Source: a virus
Length of the DNA: 27,273 bases
Direction: 5' to 3' (one strand)
Virus record (IMG/VR): IMGVR_UViG_3300032265_000097
Location: 1 to 27,273 of that record
Part shown: in pieces, positions 17,651-19,134 of the stretch
How the letters are laid out: every line of letters starts with the position of its first letter
Position numbering within the stretch: position 1 is the stretch's first letter
The notes under the pieces: generated by a model
Databases searched by the model: none
Seen by the model: only the letters and a program-made list of their open reading frames with translations
What the model was told of the DNA's origin: nothing
Made by a program: the position numbers and the translations under genes

Positions 17651-17677
17651 AAATGGGGGCTAATCACCCCCATTTTT
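17651..17677 (+). terminator. Rho-independent terminator after the second decoration gene
   Basis: AAATGGGGG (17651-17659), loop CTAATCA, CCCCCATTT (17667-17675), and T-run to 17677. The nine-pair stem is the longest of the three terminators. The next ATG (17682) is only four bases past the T-run and has no Shine-Dalgarno site. Confidence 0.88.
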
Positions 17678-17681
17678 AAAT

Positions 17682-17867
17682 ATGGTAATTTATCTCAAAC
17701 ATCCCATTCACGGCGCCAAAGTGGCAACCATGCACTTAGAGGCAGAAGCGGATGAAGAAAACGGTTGGGTGCGCTACAATCTTGACACGCCTTCTGAACC
17801 TGAAGCGGCTCCCGTGAACGTGCTGGAAGTTAAGCGCCGTCGTAAAGTGACCATTGAAGAGGTTTAA
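17682..17867 (+). CDS. Hypothetical protein, 61 aa, acidic middle and basic tail
   Basis: The product reads MVIYLKHPIHGAKVATMHLE then AEADEENGWVRYNLDTPSEP, ending LEVKRRRKVTIEEV. It matches a common type of tiny phage protein with [VI]YLKHP.HG.KVAT..AEA..DE.NGW.R[YF], of unknown function, often found between coat and head-completion genes. The start lies four bases after a terminator and lacks a visible ribosome site, so expression would need readthrough or another start. Its final codons (GAA GAG GTT TAA) are repeated at the end of the homing endonuclease that follows. Confidence 0.65.
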   Translation: MVIYLKHPIHGAKVATMHLEAEADEENGWVRYNLDTPSEPEAAPVNVLEVKRRRKVTIEEV

Positions 17868-17872
17868 ACATG
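17857..17872 (+). repeat. Direct repeat, left copy, at the GIY-YIG gene start
   Basis: AAGAGGTTTAAA (17857-17868) followed by C-ATG. It spans the stop of the 61-aa gene and the GAGG ribosome site seven bases before the endonuclease ATG. The right copy at 18396 is identical over 12 bases and differs only at the base before ATG. Confidence 0.75.
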
Positions 17873-18406
17873 GCATCAGCCATTTACGCGATTGTCAACA
17901 CTGTCACACGCGACATGTACGTTGGCTCTGCTGTGGCTGTCAACCGTAGGTGGTCCGCACATCGCCGAGATTTGGCTAGGCAATGCCATTACAACACTCG
18001 ACTTCAGAGAGCGTACGATAAATACGGCAAAGATGCTTTTGATTGGGAAGTAATCCAAACTGTTGACGACAAAAATAAACTAATTGAACGTGAACAATTC
18101 TGGATGGATTTTTTTGCGCCAGCGTACAACGGGCGCCCTATTGCCAATTCTCCTCTCGGTACAAAACACTCAATTGCAACACGCGCTAAAATGAGCGAGT
18201 CAGCCAAAAAACGCGGTTTTACTGAAGAGCATAAACAAAATATCTCATTGGCAAAAAAAGGTGTTTCTACAGTTACTGACGCGCAACGTAAATTGTTAAG
18301 TGAACGCGCCAAAACACGCGTGTTTTCGGCTGAAGAACGCGCTAAGATTTCAACCTCTTTGATTGGGAACAAGCGTGCGGCAAACAAAACCACAAAAGAG
18401 GTTTAA
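17870..18406 (+). CDS. GIY-YIG homing endonuclease with NUMOD3 repeats
   Basis: The 178-aa free-standing endonuclease has a GIY-YIG fold: IYAI (residues 5-8) and YVGSA (17-21), Arg26/Arg27 in NRRW, KYGKDAFDWEVI, and the catalytic-type Glu75 in EREQFWMD with the YN pair at 86-87. Residues 98-167 hold about three NUMOD3 DNA-binding repeats (GTKHSIATRAKMSESAKKR, GFTEEHKQNISLAKKG, VFSAEERAKISTSLIGNK). It resembles Seg-type enzymes that spread by cutting related phage DNA. It separates the 61-aa gene from the gp4-like gene and is bounded by a 12-bp direct repeat. Confidence 0.9.
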   Translation: MASAIYAIVNTVTRDMYVGSAVAVNRRWSAHRRDLARQCHYNTRLQRAYDKYGKDAFDWEVIQTVDDKNKLIEREQFWMDFFAPAYNGRPIANSPLGTKHSIATRAKMSESAKKRGFTEEHKQNISLAKKGVSTVTDAQRKLLSERAKTRVFSAEERAKISTSLIGNKRAANKTTKEV

Positions 18407-18411
18407 AAATG
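18396..18411 (+). repeat. Direct repeat, right copy, at the GIY-YIG gene end
   Basis: AAGAGGTTTAAA (18396-18407) followed by A-ATG. It covers the endonuclease stop and supplies GAGG seven bases before the gp4-like gene's ATG (18409). The repeat unit is 539 bp from left copy to right copy. Confidence 0.75.
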
Positions 18412-19134
18412 ACAACTTATACGGCGGGTGACCAGATAAACAGGGCACTTAGGCTGCTCGGCATTCTCGCCGAAGGTGAAACGCCATCTGCTGCCATGTC
18501 GCAAGACGCGTTGATGGCGCTCAATCAAATGATCGACAGTTGGAACACTGAGCGATTAATGATTTTTAACACCATTGATCAAGTGTTTACTTGGCCATCT
18601 GGTGAAATTCAGCGTCATCTTGGCCCTAGCGGTGCAAGCATTGGCGGTTTTGATGGCATTCGGCCTATTTTGCTGGATGATGCTACATACTTCAAAGCGC
18701 CGAATGGCGTATCGTATGGCATCAAGTTTATTAACCAGCAGCAGTATGATGGTATTGCTGTCAAAACAGTTACTTCCACGTATCCACAAGTCATGTGGAT
18801 CAACATGGAGTATCCCAATATTCAGATGACACTGTATCCTCGTCCTACACAGGATTTGGAATGGCACTTTATCAGCGTACAAGAACTGGATCAGCCTGCT
18901 GATTTGTCCACGACCATGTATTACCCACCAGGCTATCTGCGTGCGTTTACATACAACTTGGCAATGGAAATCGCACCTGAATTTGGCGTTGAGCCAAGCC
19001 CACAGGTAACTCGCATTGCCATGACCAGCAAGCGCGATTTGAAGCGCATCAATAACCCTGATGATGTAATGGCAATGCCATACGCAATGGTGGCCAACCG
19101 TCAACGATTTAACATTTATGCGGGTAACTACTAA
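18409..19134 (+). CDS. Head-closure / tail accessory protein, P22 gp4-like
   Basis: The 241-aa protein seals the portal after packaging and forms the base of the short tail. Family features are TAGDQINRALRLLGILAEGE, ALMALNQMIDSWNTERLMIF (near 35-54), INMEYPNIQMTLYPRPTQ and the C-terminal ALRAFTYNLA-type helix (YPPGYLRAFTYNLAMEIAPE) with SKRDLKRIN. P22 gp4 is shorter (166 aa), but this longer version is common in related phages. Its ribosome site is the right copy of the repeat flanking the GIY-YIG gene. Its stop overlaps the next start (TAATG). Confidence 0.86.
   Translation: MTTYTAGDQINRALRLLGILAEGETPSAAMSQDALMALNQMIDSWNTERLMIFNTIDQVFTWPSGEIQRHLGPSGASIGGFDGIRPILLDDATYFKAPNGVSYGIKFINQQQYDGIAVKTVTSTYPQVMWINMEYPNIQMTLYPRPTQDLEWHFISVQELDQPADLSTTMYYPPGYLRAFTYNLAMEIAPEFGVEPSPQVTRIAMTSKRDLKRINNPDDVMAMPYAMVANRQRFNIYAGNY

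Follow-up and report, generated by a model that had tools for sequence, protein, structure and literature searches.

A GIY-YIG endonuclease gene at the start of a phage gp4-like gene: a probable free-standing homing cassette flanked by a 12-nt repeat

How does an endonuclease gene come to lie in a tightly packed virion operon with both of its neighbors intact? The question is raised by a freshwater virus record of 27,273 bases (the window, meaning the whole stretch of DNA analyzed), in which terminase, portal, scaffold, and major capsid genes are present. A gene for a 178-amino-acid (aa) protein of the GIY-YIG type lies between a 61-aa gene (p61) and a gp4-like head-tail adaptor gene, and the 12-nucleotide (nt) word AAGAGGTTTAAA occurs at both of its ends. 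A sequence-only reading of the locus had taken this repeat to be a target that was duplicated, or captured, by the insertion. The features are as follows.

17682..17867, + strand: p61 (61-aa gene), upstream of the insertion, recipient-type through its last base
17857..17868, + strand: copy 1 of AAGAGGTTTAAA, native p61 end plus native gp4 ribosome site, the latter apparently now used by the GIY gene
17870..18406, + strand: GIY-YIG endonuclease gene (178 aa), with ATGGC at the position of the gp4 start in the empty allele
18367..18406, + strand: tail of the GIY gene carrying the gp4 ribosome site, ungapped against the L081, L083, L086, and L289 tails
18396..18407, + strand: copy 2 of AAGAGGTTTAAA, probable cassette-borne ribosome site plus a stop codon two codons ahead of the usual family stop
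18409..18412, + strand: ATGA, the gp4 start overlapping an in-frame TGA, which serves most relatives as their GIY stop
18409..18444, + strand: reworded gp4 codons 1 to 12 (right-hand replaced tract), with a right edge at 18443 to ∼18510
18409..19134, + strand: gp4-like head-tail adaptor gene (P22 tail accessory factor type), from profile matches

The repeat and the genes around it

Both copies of the repeat are at the coordinates first given for them, and the spacing between them is 539 bp, as had been counted. Each copy contains Glu-Val-stop codons and a GAGG site: in copy 1 these belong to p61 and the GIY gene, respectively, and in copy 2 to the GIY gene and gp4. The spacing to both starts is the same in the two copies. 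As was originally claimed, both neighbors keep their stop and ribosome site. We rejected the idea that AAGAGGTTTAAA is a general operon-wide ribosome site because no third exact copy was found in the window. When the 24-nt upstream regions of the window were compared two by two (561 pairs), no pair had a longer word in common than the repeat pair (12 nt); another pair reached 11 nt, and thus the repeat is notable rather than extreme.

The 178-aa protein matches PF01541 (35.9 bits versus a cutoff of 22.6; E, 9e-9) and the homing endonuclease family phrog_314, and its NUMOD3 match, at 20.4 bits, equals the cutoff. Residues Y6, Y17, R27, H31, E75, and N87 are invariant across nine GIY members; with the conserved Tyr, Arg, Glu, and Asn in place, the protein belongs to the GIY-YIG nuclease family. 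The family profile matches the I-TevI catalytic domain (1mk0) with an E value of 5e-20. A structure model, which is modest (pLDDT, 60) and was used for the catalytic half alone, resembles I-TevI with a TM-score of 0.70 to 1mk0, normalized by the target. When bacterial and archaeal genomes were searched with the GIY profile, no relative was confirmed.

The product of gp4 matches phrog_12985 (E, 2e-43) and the head-tail adaptor family phrog_637 (E, 1e-11), and its match to PF11650 (19.6 bits) is slightly under the cutoff of 21. The next gene encodes a head-closure/stabilization protein. The domain matches, together with the empty alleles of the same junction described below, bear out the view that a homing-type GIY-YIG gene was inserted into a virion operon.

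Other variation was seen in this part of the genome. Directly before p61 and 3′ of a 137-aa gene, the sequence AATGGGGGCTAATCACCCCCATTTTT (window positions 17653 to 17680) resembles a terminator-type hairpin. There was no p61 match in L336, L338, L340, L349, and about 20 others of L324 to L403, in which gp4 starts ∼40 nt past the 137-aa gene; p61 itself may have been gained or lost among relatives. Additional DNA is present between gp4 and gp10 in L006, L007, L009, L012, L028, L036, L039, and L050, and in some relatives part of it matches the 137-aa gene in the manner of a second copy. This interval is another insertion hot spot beside the p61/gp4 junction. In MW202483.1 (L162:4685-5173, minus strand), an endonuclease is annotated on the opposite strand, just past gp4.

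Empty and occupied alleles

In IMG/VR, many relatives have p61 followed directly by gp4 (empty alleles, including L362, L038, and L027). In the same database, gp4 is adjoined by a GIY gene in 31 distinct alleles, and every contig that holds a recognizable p61 has it on the other side of that gene. The GIY sequence is a gene of its own, with no intron or intein and with intact conserved genes on both sides, and it is present or absent among relatives; this comparison of alleles identifies it as a free-standing endonuclease gene. Whole-record searches of six empty contigs, several of which are fragments, found no GIY gene elsewhere in those records.

L362, in which gp4 is 99% identical, is the empty allele that best corresponds to the window. 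Its left junction is identical to that of the window through ATTGAAGAGGTTTAAACATGGC, which is present once; the last 24 nt of p61 are identical, and nt −60 to −24 are 97% identical. GAAGAGGTTTAA also precedes gp4 in L006, L007, L012, and L032. The expectation that an empty site would read EV-stop plus GAGG once is therefore realized on the left-hand side in L362, L006, and L007. On the left of the insertion, the occupied member of each near-isogenic pair has recipient sequence as far as the GIY start codon, and in the occupied phages this codon lies at the gp4 start position of the empty allele. As judged from these alignments, the GIY gene uses the native ribosome site that lies in the end of p61.

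The right-hand side is different. In near-isogenic pairs the initial ∼15 to 40 nt of gp4 differ, after which the sequence returns to that of the recipient. Between the window and L362, 11 of the 36 nt in gp4 codons 1 to 12 differ, followed by ∼98 to 100% identity, and 9 of the 10 codons from 3 to 12 are changed synonymously. A short replaced gp4 tract was also found in the pairs L085/L038, L090/L027, and L286/L017. The identity of the tract to the nearest empty allele was 0.70 for occupied alleles (n = 8) versus 0.96 for empty controls (n = 127), with P of ∼1e-7 if relatedness is ignored, although related phages are not independent samples. The commonest motif of the empty alleles, CCGCTGG, is present in 120 of 183 empty alleles versus 0 of 31 occupied alleles (Fisher's test, 3e-13, relatedness again ignored). 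The codons ACC GCT GGC show little synonymous variation in empty alleles compared to most other gp4 Thr, Ala, and Gly codons. Over all occupied alleles, GIY distance and reworded-tract distance were hardly correlated (Spearman's coefficient, 0.17), and thus long-term coinheritance of the tract with the gene is without support across this set.

Because the right junction consists of cassette sequence followed by ∼36 nt of reworded gp4, simply removing one 539-bp unit from the window would not yield the L362 allele.

Origin of the repeat

The longest word common to the left and right junctions is 12 nt in the window versus 4 to 6 nt in the 30 other distinct occupied alleles. When left and right junctions were permuted among phages, P was 0.08, indicating that junctions from the same phage are not generally more alike. 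Target-site duplication as a feature of the family was rejected, as the 12-nt repeat occurs in 1 of 31 GIY alleles and the rest have 4 to 6 nt.

The tails of the GIY genes align codon for codon, without gaps, from AAAA to the TGA over the gp4 ATG. The window tail, which includes GAGGTTTAA, reads AAA GAG GTT TAA AAA TGA. Sister tails are in the same register and are without the repeat: AAA GGA GAT TCC CAA TGA in L081, AAA AAG GCT CAG GTA TGA in L086, and AAA GGA CAA TCT CTA TGA in L289, with L083 likewise. Since the alignment is ungapped, copy 2 of the repeat belongs to the endonuclease's own tail. The TAA stop of the window is two codons before the usual family TGA, which is still in frame over the gp4 ATG. 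An ATGA overlap of the GIY stop and the gp4 start was found in 24 of 31 occupied alleles, and the same overlap of p61 and gp4 was found in 2 of 117 distinct empty alleles. A pattern search for a closer GIY relative with a window-like tail found none.

These results bear on the proposed duplication or capture, in which the insertion would have copied the native end of p61 so that the GIY gene now ends in a captured p61 tail. The 12-nt identity, equally spaced to both starts, is what such an event would give, and the p61 end of two empty alleles, L282 and L283 (ACCACCGAAGAGGCTGAAAAATGACAACTTATACGG), matches the right junction of the window codon for codon with few changes. However, the repeat is absent from the 30 other alleles, the sister tails are homologous and of equal length with other sequences, and the ATGA overlap of the L282 type otherwise marks occupied alleles. 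We regard duplication or capture as improbable. A variant, capture of KTTxEV-stop from the p61 of L036-like phages, was rejected because GIY genes have the K-x-x-K tail as an ancestral feature.

Instead, the repeat probably consists mainly of two ribosome sites with separate origins, the native one and one contributed by the cassette tail, a judgment that we make jointly with the homing-cassette explanation given below. The two sites would have become identical in the lineage of the window by convergence or by a short local conversion, and either can account for the perfect 12-mer. GAGG is absent from the p61 end of L288, yet the tail of this allele contains AAAAAGAGGTTAAA, which indicates that a matching target is not needed for similar words to arise. 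The similar words found in other contexts, in the L288 tail and in the empty allele L064, were counted against the homing-cassette explanation. L064 also has an ATGA overlap (AAAGAGGTTCTGGCATGACAACTTACACGG), making it the second such empty allele, and is possibly an independent scar of endonuclease loss.

Local conversion specifically would mean that, in a tail already equipped with a ribosome site, a ∼10- to 20-nt patch was replaced, with either the native copy or an empty allele as donor. In the window, AAGAGGTTTAAAAATGACAAC equals the native form seen in related empty alleles (GAGGTTTAAAAATGACAACG, L036 to L046), and cassette-type sequence flanks the patch on both sides. On the other hand, L288 reached its word with a p61 end that is without GAGG, the ribosome-site pair with 11 nt in common is also in the window, and conversion is compatible with a homing cassette and hard to tell from convergence. 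We consider conversion possible but doubtful.

L282 and L283 (on contigs shared with L324 and L325) are the closest relatives of the window by the upstream 137-aa gene (96%). They have no GIY gene, yet they carry exactly the window tract from AAAAATGACAAC to CAGGGC. The pattern of that tract was found in only three IMG/VR contigs, those of the occupied allele L281 (the contig of L085) and of the empty alleles L282 and L283. In the latter, GAAGAGG is the point at which the tract joins p61, an ATGA overlap is present, and save for two base differences the junction is the expected product of recombination between AAGAGG copies. It is thus possible that these alleles have lost the endonuclease across AAGAGG; the reverse order, with L282 as ancestor, appears less likely. 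If L282 and L283 were native ancestors without a scar, the reworded start would be ordinary gp4 variation into which the GIY gene was inserted. Their closeness to the window in the 137-aa gene and their shared gp4 start are as such a history would have them, but that start and the ATGA overlap are of the occupied class and rare among empty alleles, and their gp4 matches the window across the short tract only, with ∼75% identity beyond it. Native ancestry is in our judgment unlikely.

A candidate homing cassette and its relation to known systems

The allele comparisons are best explained if the start of gp4 is the fixed insertion site of a free-standing GIY-YIG homing cassette, and we think this explanation is probably correct. 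The enzyme would cut empty alleles within the initial dozen codons of gp4, around TACACCGCTGGC, and repair from a carrier would copy the endonuclease gene and a short right-hand tract. The replaced tracts of the near-isogenic pairs are in keeping with site-specific cutting of alleles without the endonuclease and with biased inheritance. The reworded start would remove the target and so shield the carrier from cutting, while the reworded codons would leave the gp4 protein nearly unchanged. Expression of both genes would be kept because the GIY gene uses the old ribosome site of gp4 and its tail supplies a new one. The AAGAGG repeat may then permit clean loss of the GIY gene, giving a reworded, endonuclease-free allele such as L282 or L283.

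The short tracts adjacent to the junction suggest a nearby cut site. A target at the junction would be atypical for free-standing phage endonucleases, as those of the T-even phages cleave at a distance of hundreds to thousands of bases (PMC2988022). Like SegA to SegG of these phages, the gene described here is an intronless GIY-YIG gene that lies among conserved phage genes, occurs in some relatives and not in others, and has had flanking sequence replaced (PMC2988022). Unlike the case with the Seg enzymes and their distant cut sites, only ∼15 to 40 nt beside the insertion are replaced, the start codon of the neighbor is taken over, and its ribosome site is resupplied. The intron-encoded I-TevI of T4 has a homologous catalytic domain (residues 1 to 97) and a NUMOD3-type tail, and a close spacing of target and insertion, if it holds here, would resemble intron homing. 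In contrast to I-TevI, there is no intron, and the GIY gene adjoins the start of a gene and interrupts none. MobE of T-even phages is also a free-standing operon gene with overlapping stop and start codons, suggesting translational coupling (PMC2988022), but MobE is an HNH enzyme with the overlap at the endonuclease start, whereas here the overlap is between the endonuclease end and the downstream gene.

In logic alone, the arrangement is analogous to the yeast WHO elements, in which an endonuclease gene travels with a target-gene end that resists cutting (PMC7282813). The WHO enzymes are LAGLIDADG/intein-like, and they replace the FBA1 3′ end and leave old fragments (PMC7282813); here the enzyme is GIY-YIG, the host is a phage, the 5′ end is replaced, and there are no fragments. 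At this locus the gp4 start is reworded, and the commonest wild motif is absent from 31 of 31 occupied alleles; resistance to cutting would be a candidate property, and we make no claim that the locus belongs to the WHO family. A narrow literature search found no phage case with start-codon takeover and a reworded 5′ end.

We tentatively propose that the mobile unit comprises the endonuclease gene, a ribosome site, and the 5′ end, in reworded form, of a virion gene that is essential; such a unit would be the 5′-end counterpart of WHO in prokaryotes. Entry would be undamaging through start-codon takeover, the carrier would be protected by synonymous rewording, and loss across the ribosome-site repeat would leave homing-resistant empty alleles (L282 and L283). 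The locus offers a testable route by which a selfish endonuclease gene may enter a tightly packed virion operon with its neighbors unharmed, the start of the downstream gene being taken and a new one supplied. The natural empty, occupied, and possible post-loss alleles are exact DNA pairs with which cutting, resistance, and loss can be tested.
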